A stretch of 64,000 nt of DNA from Dysgonomonas sp. PF1-14 (lineage in GTDB: Bacteria > Bacteroidota > Bacteroidia > Bacteroidales > Dysgonomonadaceae): the NCBI RefSeq assembly GCF_029892965.1, contig NZ_JARXWN010000001.1, positions 62,001 through 126,000 on the forward strand, given 5' to 3'. A program made the translations under genes and the position numbers. Of the stretch, positions 25,158 to 34,418 are shown in pieces (the first letter of the stretch is position 1; the number at the start of each line of letters is the position of its first letter). A model generated the notes under the pieces. The model searched no databases. It was not told the DNA's origin and saw nothing but the letters and a program-made list of their open reading frames with translations.

Positions 25158-28100
25158 TCATTTACTTAGATTAGCGATACTTTCTTCTATCGTTTTGATC
25201 TTGCTTTCGGCATCGGCTAGCTTTTTACGCTCATTATCAACAATCTCAGGTTTTGCATTAGCTACGAACCTTTCATTGCTTAATTTCGCATTAACCGACT
25301 TGAGGAAACCTTGCAAATAGACAAGCTCGTCATTCAGCTTTTTCAGTTCGGCTTCTATGTCGATATTGTTACCTAGCGGAACAGAGAATTCTGTCGTCCC
25401 TACAAGGAAAGATGCAGCAGTAGGGTCTTTTTCTTTTACTTCCGAGATAGCGGAAAGATTACCCATTTTCAGTATAACACTATTGAATGCAGTATTATAA
25501 TCTCCGGTAACTTCCAAAGTTAGTTCTTCCTTATTCGGAATATTCTTCTGCAAACGGATAGTGCGTACTCCGGCAATGGTTTCTTTCACTTTTTCGAATG
25601 CGGCGAGCAAATCAGCGTTGAAATTTGTATCTTTTGGCATATCGGATATCATAATGCTTTCCCCGTCTTTTCTTTCAGTAAGCACCTGCCACAGTTCTTC
25701 GGTAATGAACGGCATAAACGGGTGAAGCAAACGAAGCAACGAATCGAAATAGCCGAGTGTGGCCTCATAGGTCTTCCTGTCTATCGGTTGTTGGTAAGCA
25801 GGTTTCACCATTTCCAGATACCATGATGAAAATTCATCCCAGAACAGTTTGTAAATAGTCATCAATGCTTCAGATAGTTTGTATTTCCCAAAAGAATCGT
25901 CCATTTCAGCAATGGTCTTAGCCAATATATTTTCGAACCATTCTATCGCTGTTTTCGCCGATTCGGGTTGCTCTATGCTATCGCTTACTTCCCATCCTTT
26001 TACCAGACGGAAAGCATTCCATATCTTGTTATTGAAATTACGTCCTTGTTCGCAAAGGCTTTCGTCAAATGGCAAATCGTTTCCGGCAGGCGATGTCAGC
26101 AGCATACCCATACGCACACCATCGGCACCGTATTTCTCCATTAGTTCGATAGGATCGGGCGAATTACCAAGTGATTTTGACATCTTACGTCCCTGCTTAT
26201 CGCGGACGATACCTGTGAAATATACATTTTTGAAACAAGCTTCGCCACGATATTCATATCCCGACATGATCATACGTGCCACCCAGAAGAAAATGATTTC
26301 GGGAGCAGTTACAAGGTCATTTGTCGGATAGTAATAGCTGATATCCTTATTGTCCGGATTATTGATACCATCGAAAACAGAGATCGGCCACAACCACGAA
26401 GAAAACCATGTGTCAAGGCAATCCTCATCCTGACGAAGGTCTTCCATTTTCAGATTCGGATTGATCTTCTTAGCTTCATTCAGTGCTTTTTCAGGAGTTT
26501 CACCTACTACGAAACCTCCTTCCGGCAGATAATATGCAGGAATCTGATGTCCCCACCACAATTGTCGGCTGATGTTCCAGTCCTTGATATTTTCCATCCA
26601 GTGACGGTACATGTTTTTGAACTTCGCAGGATGGAATTTAATTGTGTCATCTTCTACAGCATCCAATGCCGGTTTAACAAGGTGTTTCATTTTCAGAAAC
26701 CATTGCATTGAAAGTTTCGGTTCGATAGGTACATGCGTACGTTCCGAGTAACCTACACTATTGGTATATGGTTCGGCTTTTTCAAGCAAGCCTGAATCCT
26801 GCAAATCTTTTTCAATCTTCTTACGCACATCGAAGCGATCCATTCCCGCATATTGAAGTCCGTACTCGTTGAGTGTACCATTATCATTCAATATGTCGAT
26901 TCCTTCAAGATTATGCTTTTCGCCAAGCATATAGTCGTTTACATCATGCGCAGGGGTCACTTTCAGAAATCCTGTCCCGAATTCCATATCTACATAATCG
27001 TCCTCTATGATCGGCACTACACGGTTGGCAATAGGTACAATCACCTTTTTTCCTTTCATATAGGCTGTTTTCGGATCATTCGGATTGATACATACGGCAA
27101 TATCTCCGAAAATAGTTTCGGGGCGGGTGGTAGCTACAACGATGTAAGGAGCCCCCTCAACTCCCCCGAAGGGGGAGCTATTAAGTGTGGTACTTATCTT
27201 TTCTAAGACATTTTCGGTGTCTGCTATTACTTCTTCGTTAGTAAAACGAAGAATTTTGTAACCTAGATCAGTTAGAATTTCATCTCTTAATTTATCCGCT
27301 TGTTCGATTTCCGGGTCGTTATGATATTTACCATCAACTTCAATAACTAGCTTTTTATCAAGACAAACAAAATCTACAATAAAGTTTTCAATTATCTGTT
27401 GCCTTCTGAATTTATCTCCAAGTTGTTTTTTACGCAACATTTCCCATAAAGCACTCTCCGCTTCTGTAGAGAATTTACGCATGTCCTTTGCATGCTTTTT
27501 CAACAGATTGTAGTTATCCCACTTCGCAGTCTGATACTTCGGGGCTTCACTCTCACTCCCCCCTTGGGGGGTCGGGGGGGCTATGTAATACTTAATGTAA
27601 TACAGCTTCCCATGCTCTTCTTTATGGATAACCTCTTCATCCGATACCGCTGTTTGTGCCGCAGGATCCCAGTTTACCATGCGTACACCACGATAAATAA
27701 GTCCTTTATTATATAGGTCTACAAAGACTTTCAATACACTTTCGGAGCGTTTTTCGTCCATTGTGAAACAAGTCCTGTCCCAATCGCAGGATGCACCCAG
27801 TTTTTTCAATTGCTCAAGGATGATACCTCCATGTTTGTGAGTCCAGTCCCAAGCATGTTTTAGAAATTCCTCACGCGTAAGGTCATTCTTGCTGATCCCT
27901 TCGGATGCAAGTTTGGCAACAACCTTAGCTTCTGTAGCGATAGATGCATGGTCGGTACCCGGCACCCAGCACGCATTCTTACCCATCATACGGGCACGGC
28001 GCACAAGTATATCCTGTATGGTATTGTTAAGCATATGCCCCATGTGAAGCACACCGGTGACGTTTGGCGGCGGTATGACTATCGTGAATGGTTCACGGTT

Positions 28101-28193
28101 ATCAGGCTCCGAATGAAAATATTTATTCTCGAGCCAGTACTGATACCATTTGTCCTCTACTTCGGCGGGGTTGTATTTACTTGCAATTTCCAT
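25158..28193 (-). CDS. valS: Valyl-tRNA synthetase carrying an in-frame DUF559 insertion
   Basis: Charges tRNA-Val. The HIGH-type motif (HMGH, residues 50-53), the editing-domain motif [22 protein letters not shown] (KMSKS) and the C-terminal coiled coil are intact. I start at the ATG at 28191-28193 because MEIASKYNP is the family N-terminus. At residues about 205-348 the protein has an extra 145-residue block between KYYI and [10 protein letters not shown], containing a DUF559 endonuclease-like domain (see the separate feature). At 1011 residues it is about 140 longer than usual. A TATTTTTG box lies 31 bases upstream (28224-28231). The frame is open throughout. Confidence 0.93.
27148..27582 (-). 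mobile_element. 435-bp in-frame DUF559 insertion inside valS
   Basis: The block encodes about 145 residues with an endonuclease-like DUF559 domain (about valS residues 228-334; [25 protein letters not shown] and [10 protein letters not shown] are characteristic, with Asp274, Glu285 and Asp287 as likely PD-(D/E)XK residues). Both ends are GC-rich and inverted (AGCCCCC at one end, GGGGGCT at the other), and each contains a small palindrome (CCCCCCAAGGGGGG; CTCCCCCTTCGGGGGAG). The bases TTACAT (ATGTAA on +) flank the block on both sides (27142-27147, 27583-27588), suggesting a target duplication. Translated edges read PPTPQGG and SPFGGVEG. Confidence 0.75.
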
Positions 28194-28223
28194 GATTAAT
28201 AATTGAATGTCATTTTGAGGGAA

Positions 28224-28231
28224 CAAAAATA
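28224..28231 (-). promoter_or_regulatory. Candidate -7 box for valS (TATTTTTG)
   Basis: TATTTTTG on the minus strand, 31-38 bases before the valS ATG. It matches TAnnTTTG and lies between valS and the mosaic repeat array. Confidence 0.45.
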
Positions 28232-29474: not shown

Positions 29475-32400
29475 CTAGAATTCCCAGTTCAATGACATAC
29501 CGATACTGCGAGTACCCGGAACATTGAAGTAGTCTAACCCGAATCCGTTAGATGATCCTGTAAGGTTAGTCTCCGGGTCTACACCTTTGTATTTGCTGTA
29601 CAGCAATATATTTGTTGCATGGACAGATACTTTCAACCAAGACCTCTTACGGAGCAGATTCAACGGAATGCGGTAGCCCAACGATATTTCTCTCAGTTTG
29701 ATGTAGCTGGCATCTTCTATACCATCTTCACCGATTCCATATTGTCCGTAACGTACCCAGCGGTTTTCATTCAGATTGTCACCGTAAAAACTTACAGGAA
29801 TATTATTCGCCTGTCCGTTTTCCAATACACCCGGAAATACATAATTAGTAGTATTACGATGATCGGCCGAATATTGAGATGTACCGTAATAATTCATGGT
29901 ATTCCTTGTCCCGTTCCATATTTCTCCGCCTTTTCTGTAGTCAAACAACATAGATAAGGTAAAGTTTTTGAATGTCAGCGTGTTTGACCAACTCATCTGC
30001 CAATCGGGATTCGGATTACCTATGACCTGCTGTTCATCGCTTTTGACAGGGAAGCCGTCATTTCCGATAATCATACGCCCCTGATCGTCACGTTTATAAA
30101 CCGTTCCATATAGCACTCCCAGTGGTTGCCCTTCTATGGCATACGATCCGGCTGCATCTTCAATTCCGGAGAGCATCAGTTTTCTTCCTCCCAGATTGGT
30201 TACTTTGTTGCGTTCGCGTGCAAATACCAATCGGGTTTGCCATGAGAAATTACGGTTTCGTACAGGATAAGCACCCAGCTCTATCTCAAATCCATGAGTC
30301 CTGAACGAACCTGAGTTTTCCAGCTGAAGGGAAGATTCTGATATCTGAACAGGCAATAACTGGTCTTTTCCTTTTTTCCAGTAAAGTGAAGCTGCCAACG
30401 ATACACGGTTGTTCCACAGACCAACATCAGTTCCTATGTTGTAGCTCAGAATCCTTTCCGGAGCCAGATCATCTGGTAAAATGATCTCGCGGCTTTCGAA
30501 ATGTTGAGATGTTGTATTCAGGTTGTAAACAGCCGAGTTGAAATAAACCGGATCAAGATACAACGGAGTCTCCTTATCAGCCCGTGAAATGTTAGCACGC
30601 AATGTAAGATATGAAACCAGATCGCTATTGAACATCTCGTGCAGATTCGTAGCTATTCCTACCGATGGTGAAAGTAATGCTTTGTCGCTTACCGAACTCC
30701 ATTCGCCTCTCATCGCTGCTTCCAGAATAAACTTTTGTCGGTAGTTGACACTGGCCTTGCCAAAAACAGCATTGGAATGACGCCGGAATAAACGGTTGTA
30801 AAGCTCAATATCTGTTGCATTCAATATATTATAATCTCCGGACTGAGCCAGATCATAACCGTCTATCCGTTCAATGGTGCGTTTAGAATAATTGTATTCG
30901 TAACCCGCCATTGCGTCTAGTGTCAAATGATCCCAGTTTTTATCATATTTGGCAAAGAATCTCGATTGCAATGATTTGAATTTCTCATTCCTGTTCATGA
31001 TATGCCCTGTCGGGATATAGGCAGAACCAACGTTCAGAGCTGTTTTCGAATCTCCGAACAGGTAGTCTCCGTTTATCTGATAATTCAGCGACAAATTATT
31101 GATCAGTTTATATTTCAGATTCGCATTTCCTGTAAATCTGTTTGTTTCGTCCTTGAACGGATTGTTATCCGAAGTCCAATACGGATTGTCGGTAGCATCG
31201 CCTGCCCTGCGCTGGCTTCCGTCACTCAGGGTAGAAGTCTTGTTGTCGAATGTAGGCGGGGTAAGCAATACACCTTGCATAAAGCCGGACATATTATATC
31301 CGCGCTGTAAACGGTTGCCATTGATATTCCTGTAACCAAAATCTATATCGAAATCCAGTTTGTTGCTCCATTGGCTTCCTAGCTTGAATCCGATCACCGT
31401 CTCATTTTGTTTCGACTCAGGGATGAAACCATGTTGGGTATTATTCCCTAACCTCAATGTATAATGAAGATTCTCGTTTCTTCTTGTCAATGTCAGATGA
31501 TTCTTAGCGGTATATCCCGTTTCAAAAACATCATAAGCATCGTAAATCGGCGCATTTGCAGAACTTACACTTGGCCCCCAGCTAAATGTTTCATTATCCT
31601 TGTTCCATACCGGAGTTCCATCTACCGGACGTCCCTGTGCGTATTGGCTTTGCATATCAGGCAACCTGTTCGGATTATCTACGGAGAAGGAAGAAGAGAA
31701 CGCAATAGAATATTTTTGCTGTTTTGGTTTCTTCGAACTCACAACCAATACTCCGTTTGCACCTCTGGCTCCATATACCGAAGCTGCCGATGCGTCTTTC
31801 AATACTGTGATGCTTTCTATATCGTTAGGGTTCATACTCGATAAGTCTGAATATTCTACCGGTACTCCATCCAATACGACCATCGGGGTGTTGTTACTCA
31901 TTATTGAGGCTGCTCCCCTGATGCGTACTCTGGCAGGATTCCCCGGTTCGCCCGAAGTTTGCGAAATCTGTACTCCTGCAACCCTTCCCTGCAATACGTG
32001 AGCGGCCGAGACATTCGCCAGTTCTTCACTCGATACTGTAGATGTACTACCTGTAAGATCTCTCCTTCTTTGTGTTCCATAGCCGACAACTATCACTTCA
32101 TCCAGACTTGATTGTTCTTCTGCCATCTGAATATTAGGAGAAGTTGACGTTTGCGGAGTCGAAGTTCTCTTCGGTGTTGGGGTTTTTCTAAACGATGGTG
32201 ATGAATTATATGACTGTGATGTCTCAACACTCTTCTCAACCTTAGGAACCCTGACAACATCGTCCACTGCCAGGAATGATGTGTATTGTGTCAGGAGATT
32301 GTATTTCAATCCCAGATTAGTCACACGCTCTATCTGGCTTGCACTGCGTTGGTGGTTGCCATAGTTGTCGCCCCACCGGTTATTGCTGCTTTCATAGTAC

Positions 32401-34418
32401 TGGGCATAATCGTCATAATAACGGATCTGATTGCGTGCCCACAAATAACGCAGAGCCTGATTGTTTTCGACACGCGCTTTCGCTACATCGAATTTTTGCT
32501 CATAAGTGGTATTTCCTGCAATTCCGCTTACGGCTATTGTACCGCTTGCAGGTGATTTGTATTTTCCATATATCAGTATCGGACGTTCGGCAAATACATC
32601 GGGAATGGCTACCGGTTCTACTTCGTACACATCGAAGTCGCCCCAGTCGACAGAAATGTTTGTAAGTACAGGCTTGGATATTTCCTGTATGGCTTTTTTC
32701 CCGATAGCTTCTGCCTGACTGTGGTTGTTCACAATATATGGGGTTCCCATACCTGCATTAGCCAATCCTTCTATGATGTACCTGTTCACATTTGACCCTA
32801 TTCCGAAAGGAAATAAATTAGCCTTGTTCAGGTTGTCGCGTACAAAATTGAATGCCTCCTTTTCGACTGTAACAAAACCGTCTGTCACAATGATGAAAGT
32901 GCGGGAGAAGCCTTCTGTCTCTTTAAAGTTCATCGCATTCACCAAGGCCGGGTAAAGACGCGTGCCTCCGCTTCCTCTTTGCCTGTTGATAACTTCTATT
33001 GCCTTGTCCACGTTTTCTTTGGTAGCTTCGACAGACTTACTGTAAAGCATATCGTTGCTCGATTCGAACAGCATGACATTGAAACGGTCTGTGGGACGTA
33101 GTTCCGATATTAAATTGCGAATAAGTGTTTTTGACACTTCTAGCGGAAATCCGTACATCGAACCTGAAACATCGACAATAAATACATACTCGCGCGGAGG
33201 TATCTGGTCAGAAGTAGGAGCTTTTGGCGGCTGCATCATCAGTAGGAAGAAATTCTCGTCACCATGTTCGTAGCGCAACAGACCCGATTCTACTTTACCG
33301 CCTTGTAATTCGTATTGAAGGATGTAATCACGATCTCCTTCATAGTCTTTCGGGTTGGATAATGTTACTATAGCCTGATCGGGTGATTTAGATTCGATAG
33401 ACAGATTATGGGATATGCTGCTGATCTTTTGTATAGGCATACCTGCCTGAACAATGGTCTTGATGGAGAACTGGGGAGTCTTTCCGCTTTCAAATACCGC
33501 TGTCGAACGGTTGACCCATTGCTCGCCTGTTTCTGTATAGCGCGGGCCGACTACTGTAGGGTAAACAAATTCATATATCCCTCCGTTATGCTCAAGTAAT
33601 TCGGTATAACGCATTTCTACAATGATGGTATCACCGGGCAGAATATTGGCTACATTCATTTGGAAAACGTTCGGACGGTGCTGTTCCAGTAAGGTGGTTG
33701 ACTTACCTTCCGATTTAGCCTGTTCGTATTCCTGACGCGCTTGTTCCTTCTTCTTTATTTTAGCTTCGATCCGTCTGTCGCCGACAGTCATAGCCATACC
33801 ATATACCGCCGCTCTGGTAGAACCGGGAAATACATATATAGCTTCCAGCGTGTTAGGGCTTTCATTGATATATATCTGATTGACACGAACATCAGCTATA
33901 ACCCCTGCAATATTTACCTCTACATTCGTGCTTTTGAGAGGCATGCTTGCATCTTTAAGGGAATCGCTCTTTATCAGAAAATAAGGTGAAAGAGACTGGT
34001 CTTCCCTGCTCGGTGCAATTTCTTTTTGCTTTACCGGCTCTTTCTTCGCTGTCTGTTCCTTTGGTTTTTCTACCGCTTTCTCTTTCTCATTTACAGAACT
34101 AATGACAGGAATGAATGAACCTGCAGGCTTTGAGTTGGAGGCTGTAACCACCATTTCCGAAGGTTTCATCCCTACATATGAAAAGGAAATGGTACTTCCC
34201 AAAGGCGCCCTTAATTCATAAGCTCCGTCGAGATCGGTAATTGTTCCGTTAGTCGTTCCTTTCTGTAATACGCTGACACCTATAATCGGCTCCCCGCTAC
34301 TATCATTGATCACACCCGATACGACACGCATCTCCTGTGCAAAAGCAACTGTACTGATGGACAGGAATAACAATATATATAATATTCTGGATTTCATAGT
34401 TTTATTTTTCATATTCAA
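29475..34418 (-). CDS. VIT-VWA domain protein fused to a SusC-type TonB-dependent receptor
   Basis: 1647 residues in one open frame. Order: signal peptide (1-28), CarboxypepD_reg-like domain (31-95), Lys/Glu-rich linker (110-140), VIT domain (about 150-290), VWA domain (about 408-580) with the MIDAS set DVSGS (416-420), Thr486 and Asp513, a Ser/Thr/Pro linker (about 735-765), then a TonB plug (about 773-897; GYGTQRRRDLTGS, RIRGAAS, VLDGVPVE, SVYGARGANGV) and a beta-barrel to the C-terminal GMSLNWEF. It is a full outer-membrane receptor carrying an inter-alpha-inhibitor-type adhesion module before its plug. No SusD gene is adjacent. It is the last gene after an ECF sigma, FecR, STN and GldM-like gene. 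Confidence 0.9.
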   Translation of the reverse strand: MNMKNKTMKSRILYILLFLSISTVAFAQEMRVVSGVINDSSGEPIIGVSVLQKGTTNGTITDLDGAYELRAPLGSTISFSYVGMKPSEMVVTASNSKPAGSFIPVISSVNEKEKAVEKPKEQTAKKEPVKQKEIAPSREDQSLSPYFLIKSDSLKDASMPLKSTNVEVNIAGVIADVRVNQIYINESPNTLEAIYVFPGSTRAAVYGMAMTVGDRRIEAKIKKKEQARQEYEQAKSEGKSTTLLEQHRPNVFQMNVANILPGDTIIVEMRYTELLEHNGGIYEFVYPTVVGPRYTETGEQWVNRSTAVFESGKTPQFSIKTIVQAGMPIQKISSISHNLSIESKSPDQAIVTLSNPKDYEGDRDYILQYELQGGKVESGLLRYEHGDENFFLLMMQPPKAPTSDQIPPREYVFIVDVSGSMYGFPLEVSKTLIRNLISELRPTDRFNVMLFESSNDMLYSKSVEATKENVDKAIEVINRQRGSGGTRLYPALVNAMNFKETEGFSRTFIIVTDGFVTVEKEAFNFVRDNLNKANLFPFGIGSNVNRYIIEGLANAGMGTPYIVNNHSQAEAIGKKAIQEISKPVLTNISVDWGDFDVYEVEPVAIPDVFAERPILIYGKYKSPASGTIAVSGIAGNTTYEQKFDVAKARVENNQALRYLWARNQIRYYDDYAQYYESSNNRWGDNYGNHQRSASQIERVTNLGLKYNLLTQYTSFLAVDDVVRVPKVEKSVETSQSYNSSPSFRKTPTPKRTSTPQTSTSPNIQMAEEQSSLDEVIVVGYGTQRRRDLTGSTSTVSSEELANVSAAHVLQGRVAGVQISQTSGEPGNPARVRIRGAASIMSNNTPMVVLDGVPVEYSDLSSMNPNDIESITVLKDASAASVYGARGANGVLVVSSKKPKQQKYSIAFSSSFSVDNPNRLPDMQSQYAQGRPVDGTPVWNKDNETFSWGPSVSSANAPIYDAYDVFETGYTAKNHLTLTRRNENLHYTLRLGNNTQHGFIPESKQNETVIGFKLGSQWSNKLDFDIDFGYRNINGNRLQRGYNMSGFMQGVLLTPPTFDNKTSTLSDGSQRRAGDATDNPYWTSDNNPFKDETNRFTGNANLKYKLINNLSLNYQINGDYLFGDSKTALNVGSAYIPTGHIMNRNEKFKSLQSRFFAKYDKNWDHLTLDAMAGYEYNYSKRTIERIDGYDLAQSGDYNILNATDIELYNRLFRRHSNAVFGKASVNYRQKFILEAAMRGEWSSVSDKALLSPSVGIATNLHEMFNSDLVSYLTLRANISRADKETPLYLDPVYFNSAVYNLNTTSQHFESREIILPDDLAPERILSYNIGTDVGLWNNRVSLAASLYWKKGKDQLLPVQISESSLQLENSGSFRTHGFEIELGAYPVRNRNFSWQTRLVFARERNKVTNLGGRKLMLSGIEDAAGSYAIEGQPLGVLYGTVYKRDDQGRMIIGNDGFPVKSDEQQVIGNPNPDWQMSWSNTLTFKNFTLSMLFDYRKGGEIWNGTRNTMNYYGTSQYSADHRNTTNYVFPGVLENGQANNIPVSFYGDNLNENRWVRYGQYGIGEDGIEDASYIKLREISLGYRIPLNLLRKRSWLKVSVHATNILLYSKYKGVDPETNLTGSSNGFGLDYFNVPGTRSIGMSLNWEF

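Follow-up and report, generated by a model that had tools for sequence, protein, structure and literature searches.

The valS gene of Dysgonomonas sp. PF1-14 contains a 435-nt block that encodes a DUF559 nuclease domain between inverted hairpin ends and keeps the reading frame of the host enzyme. The reading we favor, with moderate confidence, is that the block is a non-splicing, in-frame homing cassette. Positions below refer to the window, meaning the whole 64,000-nt stretch that was analyzed; genomes and loci carry G and L numbers, G000 being the genome of the window. The features concerned are the following.

25158..28193, minus strand: valS (valine-tRNA ligase), carrying the in-frame insert; open reading frame, start and frame were checked.
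27147..27581, minus strand: in-frame cassette, 435 nt or 145 codons, replacing the native loop EGEDG, as defined by comparison with virgin (cassette-free) sites.
27183..27503, minus strand: DUF559 (PF04480) nuclease domain, Pfam E 1.7e-34, residues 229-335 of the product P0001.
27294..27374, minus strand: putative catalytic residues D272, E283, D285, H289 and D298 of P0001, conserved across copies.
27556..27582, minus strand: left end in the coding sense, an outer GC-rich arm and hairpin, AGCCCCCCCGACCCCCCAAGGGGGGAG, from the inverted-repeat alignment.
27150..27179, minus strand: right end in the coding sense, a hairpin and outer GC-rich arm, an inverted copy of the left end, from alignment and folding.
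27583..27588, minus strand: TTACAT left of the insert, a lineage-specific codon change that is absent from four orthologous inserts.
27142..27147, minus strand: TTACAT right of the insert, formed by the last base of the cassette and the native Tyr-Ile codons before VVATTRPET.

The valS open reading frame (25158-28226, minus strand, with its ATG at 28193) is uninterrupted through the inserted block. Its product, P0001, was identified as valine-tRNA ligase by the NCBIfam models NF004349 and TIGR00422, both above cut-off. Comparison with virgin relatives shows that the cassette replaces five native codons directly ahead of the CP1 editing motif TTRPET, with the junctions ...YI/APPTPQ and GGVEGAP/YI (slash at the boundary). 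The DUF559 domain (C1:89183-89503 in the genome search) is nested within a tRNA-synt_1 match covering residues 13-706 of P0001, and in the Pfam scan the block matched only DUF559 and the nuclease model MTES_1575, the latter below its cut-off. The in-frame DUF559 block of 435 nt that the earlier note had described is thus real. An assembly artefact, named in that note as a possible refutation, was excluded by open frames in many independent assemblies, including L087 and L088; single-contig genomes, for example G428 and G560, also have open cassette-bearing frames. The DUF559 domain of L088 (Dysgonomonas sp. 25) is the same as that of G016, a member of the same genus. The motif that follows the valS site is only moderately conserved, a point against homing; its best 12-residue window ranks 250 of 775, and the leuS counterpart 41 of 851. 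The cassette probably occupies a surface loop, where it would be tolerated close to a conserved motif in an essential gene. A single valS was found in G000, as the search (E up to 1e-30) matched just its two halves. Since no second valS was found in G000, this enzyme must be functional with its insert, or else the insert is removed. Elsewhere in the window, a 1647-residue frame (29478-34418, minus strand) that combines CarbopepD_reg-like, VIT and VWA domains with a TonB receptor plug looks like an unusual fusion.

The putative catalytic residues are kept in nearly all copies. Each of the five was present in 37 of 39 in-frame copies (35 of the genus and order set plus 4 further leuS copies) and in 30 of 30 free-standing copies, as well as in all 40 in-frame copies of the phylum set, or 77 of 79 in-frame copies overall. 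This agrees with the PD-(D/E)XK-type residues recognized earlier from the sequence. The two exceptions, L145 (G286) and L146 (G031), represent one decayed leuS lineage; their DUF559 lacks the putative catalytic residues, is still in frame with a low pN/pS (0.168) and is a possible domesticated domain. The nearest solved structures by sequence were 3hrl (endonuclease-like) and 3r3p (“Mobile intron protein,” E 0.0015), although the 3r3p alignment is partial and has N and W at positions where the cassette has D and H. We take 3r3p to be I-Bth0305I. EDxHD (Vsr-like) homing endonucleases such as this one belong, by sequence, to the same nuclease superfamily as the cassette domain and share its intermittent presence at fixed sites. 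The available part of one study assigns a DUF559 gene to the EDxHD homing-endonuclease family (PMC9403480). The domain is also common to VsrA and other free-standing DUF559 proteins, which are stand-alone genes with a predicted role in mismatch repair; in Caulobacter, a methyltransferase mutant requires VsrA for its DNA-damage response, according to the available part of PMC12907096.

The cassette is present at some homologous sites and absent from others. A valS match was obtained in 23 of the 25 genus genomes searched, comprising 5 full, 3 scarred and 15 virgin sites, so that the comparison of relatives' valS suggested in the earlier note revealed all three states. The scars, in G024, G008 and G013, are hairpins without DUF559. 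On a 25-row tree built without the insert, the valS states require 9 changes against a shuffled mean of 8.4, and they are scattered as if at random. The genome of the window has a second cassette in leuS (G000:C13:12801-13118; L002, L152), at the homologous place directly before FTTRADTIFG. A leuS match was found in 76 of 81 family genomes; 62 were unbroken, 13 were broken by an insert (those of G297 and G280 fall outside the text-pattern reading) and 1 (G004) was cut by a contig end. The unbroken leuS of G014 carries a scar. On a tree of 38 of the 45 leuS rows (L124, L129, L130, L131, L141, L142 and L145 left out), the 11 full ones account for 11 changes, against a shuffled mean of 9.8; well-supported branches force at least 9 of these changes. 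Most virgin sites hold the native loop, which is EGEDG-like in valS and KDSD in leuS. Sampling was at the species level, and some genomes are incomplete. Three further observations concern the same genes. A second polymorphic spot in valS (L005, L006, L032, L049) has a pair of GC-rich hairpins, separated by about 70 nt, and no DUF559, where other members of the genus, including the window, have native text. The leuS of G111 (L100) contains a second, decayed DUF559 in a different loop, which is low-scoring and was excluded from all counts. The leuS of G032 (L030) has extra palindromic inserts, one of which is located at the second leuS cassette site described below.

Similar blocks occur in many other genes of related bacteria, in addition to the leuS of the window's own genome, as the earlier note had envisaged. 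The DUF559 matches in the genome of the window are three, namely valS, leuS and one weak free-standing match. A DUF559 match (E up to 1e-3) was obtained in 24 of 61 genomes (its own and 60 relatives). In the order set, 86 of 247 genomes have a match at 1e-12, with at least 24 matches in open frames of at least 300 residues; in the phylum set, 124 of 296 genomes have a match at 1e-20, with at least 41, the window's own apart, in frames of at least 370 residues. The phylum set analyzed consists of 40 of the 41 listed matches in such frames, the two of the window's genome being uncounted. Hosts were named by NCBIfam or Pfam on representatives and some by eye or below cut-off; L187, L189 and L212 were left out of host naming.

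In-frame DUF559 cassettes recur at the same sites of leuS, ileS, valS, metH, recG, hsdR, icmF and other genes. Among hosts above the NCBIfam cut-off, leuS has two sites, upstream of the CP1 motif and upstream of YELTTMPG/YELSTMPG, and ileS also has two, upstream of TTTPWTLP and upstream of PADFIAEGVDQTRGWF. The cassette lies upstream of DVHDIGKN in metH, between DEQHRFG and TATPIPRT in recG, upstream of PPGNNGLG in the IcmF-type mutase and, in 6 of 7 copies, shortly upstream of WHTQGSGKS in hsdR, with L191 farther off. Hosts identified below cut-off, by Pfam or by eye include a PglX-like methylase (cassette upstream of DPAVGSGHF), hsdM, N6/N4 methylase, type ISP and Eco57I-type enzymes, RecB/UvrD-type helicases, a sugar aminotransferase and a nucleotide-sugar reductase. 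Many of the non-synthetase hosts are restriction-modification genes. In the phylum set without L191, the DUF559 domain ends 25 to 66 residues ahead of the named motif in those copies that have one, cassette tail included. Several copies are end fusions and not internal inserts: coproporphyrinogen oxidase (3), hisF (1), a GNAT-like frame (1), L195 and L209. A scan of viral contigs yielded one relative, L153 on an IMG/VR contig, with a whole valS that carries the cassette. This valS reads like that of G021 and is therefore probably host sequence, the contig probably being a prophage edge. No description of in-frame DUF559 cassettes was found in titles and abstract openings of the open PMC literature, nor was any open PMC literature found on DUF559 together with a tRNA synthetase.

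The cassettes fall into lineages that follow the host gene and the insertion site. In a 107-domain tree, which counts free-standing copies as one label and leaves out L021 and L145, host labels need 31 changes against 70.6 when shuffled, and none of 200 shuffles was as low; these domain trees rest on 103 columns and leave many forks open, and part of the clustering by host comes from near relatives. Grouping by host is seen for metH (across three families), 4 of 7 hsdR copies, valS, recG and the mutase copies, and leuS copies require 7 changes for 21 rows. Most free-standing DUF559 copies fall outside the synthetase-cassette clade, with L089 inside it. In G083, the cassettes of hsdR and an N6/N4-methylase (L103, L104) share 545 nt at 75.6% identity, and the homology breaks off at the two flanking hairpins. 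This delimits the unit and demonstrates that it moved between unrelated genes.

The recurrence of sites, the lineages clustered by host, the kept residues and the EDxHD affiliation together point to homing at conserved genes and not to free transposition, even though the G083 unit changed host gene. The proposed steps are as follows. The DUF559/EDxHD-type nuclease would be translated as part of the host enzyme and, with no excision, retained in the mature protein. Its targets would be cassette-free alleles, which it would cut or nick; repair templated by a cassette-bearing copy would then transfer the cassette, together with some adjacent DNA, into the target gene. One sister pair, described below, has a foreign patch of the kind expected from this, and another does not. 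Tolerance by the host protein and a kept frame would take over the role of splicing in inteins and introns. Copies decay in frame as dead domains or shrink to a short hairpin scar, virgin alleles would be open to renewed invasion, and rarely a whole unit enters another gene from hairpin to hairpin.

Traces of entry by recombination were sought beside the sites. The sister pair G015 (full) and G017 (virgin) have near-identical valS genes, and 44 of their 96 differences lie at -240..+60 relative to the insert, where 15.6 are expected (p 1.1e-11, assuming independent sites). The top of 28 blocks of 300 nt (2.82-fold) begins at -240. The leuS genes of the same pair, both virgin, have no excess at the site (11 differences against 14.7 expected). 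The G015 valS is a mosaic, with a foreign stretch at -244..-64 followed by 1 difference in the 60 nt that adjoin the insert on its left; to the right, the first 60 nt have 7 differences, all inside 18 nt. This near-identity right beside the insert leaves room for the main patch (-244..-64) to have arisen separately from the insertion. No donor of the patch was found among 344 genomes. By contrast with the G015/G017 valS pair, the other close full/virgin pair, leuS of G019 and G003 (90.8% identical), has no local excess (23 differences against 25.3 expected). As a control, G020, which has two valS copies (L048, L055) and forms a divergent virgin group together with G018 and G019, was compared between its own copies. 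Its most divergent 300-nt block is also at the site but weaker (1.57-fold), with 40 differences against 36.4 at -240..+60 (not significant) and 113 against 86 at -420..+360.

The ends of the cassette bear on the principal alternative. The first base of AGCCCCCCCGACCCCCCAAGGGGGGAG doubles as the last base of the host ATA codon. DNA folding gave modest energies, with z -2.03 for the left end (27545-27582) and z -1.73 to -1.84 for the right-end hairpin. The two ends of the window's cassette align in inverted orientation with a score of 29, against a shuffle maximum of 21 or 23 in two runs, and those of the orthologous valS insert of G021 (L052) are identical, inverted, at 30 of 30 bases. The GC-rich inverted ends reported earlier are thus upheld. 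With shuffles that preserve base composition only, inverted ends beat all 100 shuffles in 53 of 75 in-frame copies (25 of 35 and 28 of 40 in the two sets) against 1 of 73 control regions (0 of 33 and 1 of 40); none were detected above shuffles in the other 22 of 75. Homing does not account for the existence of these hairpin ends.

According to the first alternative, the hairpins are REP/MITE-like elements moved genome-wide by another enzyme, DUF559 is cargo and the in-frame copies are those that were tolerated. This is unlikely, though it is the most serious of the alternatives. Hairpins related to the cassette ends are indeed scattered in the genome, and most of the 20 close matches (L156-L175, with the REP-like hairpins AGCCCCCTAAATCCCCC and AGCCCCTCCAACCTCCC) are at or between gene ends, several as inverted pairs. 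The count at 3 mismatches (57) has no excess over the backwards control (62), and so only the close matches are meaningful. One Y1_Tnp gene is located elsewhere in the genome, solo hairpins without DUF559 occur in the valS and leuS loops, and inverted ends are also seen in 14 of 28 free-standing DUF559 genes (controls 0 of 24; 2 of the 30 copies lie too near a contig end and were left out). However, the cassette lineages group by host site across families, the nuclease residues are intact at the frequency given above, and the scatter of presence and absence demands repeated re-entry at the same spot. In addition, the valS site has no target duplication. The TTACAT repeat, proposed in the earlier note as such a duplication, was ruled out since 0 of 4 orthologous valS inserts (G007, G015, G016, G021) have it; the left copy arises from the KYYI of the window, in place of the KYKI or KYKV of these inserts. 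No target-site duplication was found at the valS site in the comparison with these four inserts. Thus, the cassette shares terminal inverted repeats with IS and MITE transposons but differs from them in lacking both a target-site duplication at the valS site and a transposase within the unit. Likewise, its ends are built like the dispersed hairpins of REP/BIME repeats, but unlike RAYT systems the unit has no Y1 transposase, its gene being an unrelated nuclease. The earlier proposal of a mobile element that keeps the frame is well supported by scattered sites, scars and many hosts, although not in the form of a classical transposon.

A second and rather improbable alternative is that DUF559 serves the host, in defence against foreign DNA or in regulation, with selection maintaining it and ordinary recombination spreading it. 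The pN/pS of the cassettes (0.06-0.21 in valS; 0.13-0.35 in leuS, for 5 of 6 cassettes with L008 left out) is similar to that of the host genes (0.08-0.15) for valS and somewhat above it for leuS, and the dead leuS pair is constrained too. DUF559-like stretches also occur in anti-phage proteins, to judge from a match to the ProA model NF058533 (E 5.6e-5, far under its cut-off) and weak PADLOC matches. Against a host function, the cassette is missing from most relatives searched, it collapses to scars and its hosts are functionally unrelated to one another.

A third alternative, slightly less probable again, is an old fixed domain that was passed on vertically, with repeated loss. In 10 valS pairs and 10 leuS pairs (the latter with the same omission of L008), synonymous divergence is as saturated in the cassettes as in the hosts, so no recent spread is visible among the sampled copies; the valS cassettes form one clade, as do the leuS cassettes of the genus. 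Most virgin sites nevertheless have the native loop, and loss of a cassette by deletion could not have restored it. In the leuS tree no two of the 11 full rows stand together, and the near-identical valS genes of G015 and G017 differ in state. As the sole account, vertical inheritance was rejected on the tree scatter of valS and leuS.

Removal of the block after transcription or translation, by an unrecognized intron, an intein or ribosome bypass, is very improbable: the gene is essential with no second copy found and the hairpins at both ends presumably resemble bypass signals, but the frame is open throughout, insert lengths and edges differ between species, there is no Rfam match (a group I or II intron was rejected up to E 1 in 26600-28200), and an intein was rejected on the Pfam scan (no intein or Hint domain) and on the junctions, which in the window lack, by eye, Cys/Ser/Thr and Asn residues. 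By the tests made, with neither a splicing domain nor a transposase, the block is neither an intein nor a known IS, as first thought.

The homing reading places the cassette among known systems as follows. With inteins that contain a homing endonuclease, it shares an in-frame position close to conserved motifs in essential genes and the proposed logic of homing, but it lacks a splicing domain and junction residues. Homing endonucleases occur in introns, inteins or as free-standing genes, and their linkage to self-splicing sequences lets them invade highly conserved genes, according to the available part of a review (PMC3943268). In contrast to the EDxHD homing endonucleases, as far as the available sources describe them, the cassette nuclease sits in frame and no splicing element was found with it. 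Rickettsia palindromic elements are likewise palindromic and in frame in conserved protein genes, and the product of an insert-bearing gmk is translated and enzymatically active (available part of PMC2229807). However, these elements measure 105-146 bp and the same part of that source mentions no nuclease, whereas the cassette has 435 nt, a DUF559 domain and site-linked lineages. The similarity to 3r3p, the EDxHD assignment, the splicing-bound nature of known homing nucleases and the Rickettsia palindromes together lead us to read the blocks as homing-type cassettes that dispense with splicing.

The wider proposal, for which the case is evenly balanced, is that such cassettes are splicing-free homing parasites throughout the phylum, with a lineage for each loop of one conserved gene and a cycle of virgin, full, dead and scarred sites, and that they leave behind new in-frame domains, some of them selected by the host. 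Conserved genes would then be invaded seemingly without splicing, in enzymes indispensable to the cell, which contrasts with the account in the available part of the review (PMC3943268). If true, this would be a natural path for selfish DNA to add whole domains to essential proteins. The cassettes would map loops of LeuRS, ValRS, MetH and RecG that tolerate inserts of about 150 residues, and they would offer compact nucleases whose targets are possibly gene-specific. They may also account for “DUF559” annotations within core enzymes of Bacteroidota.
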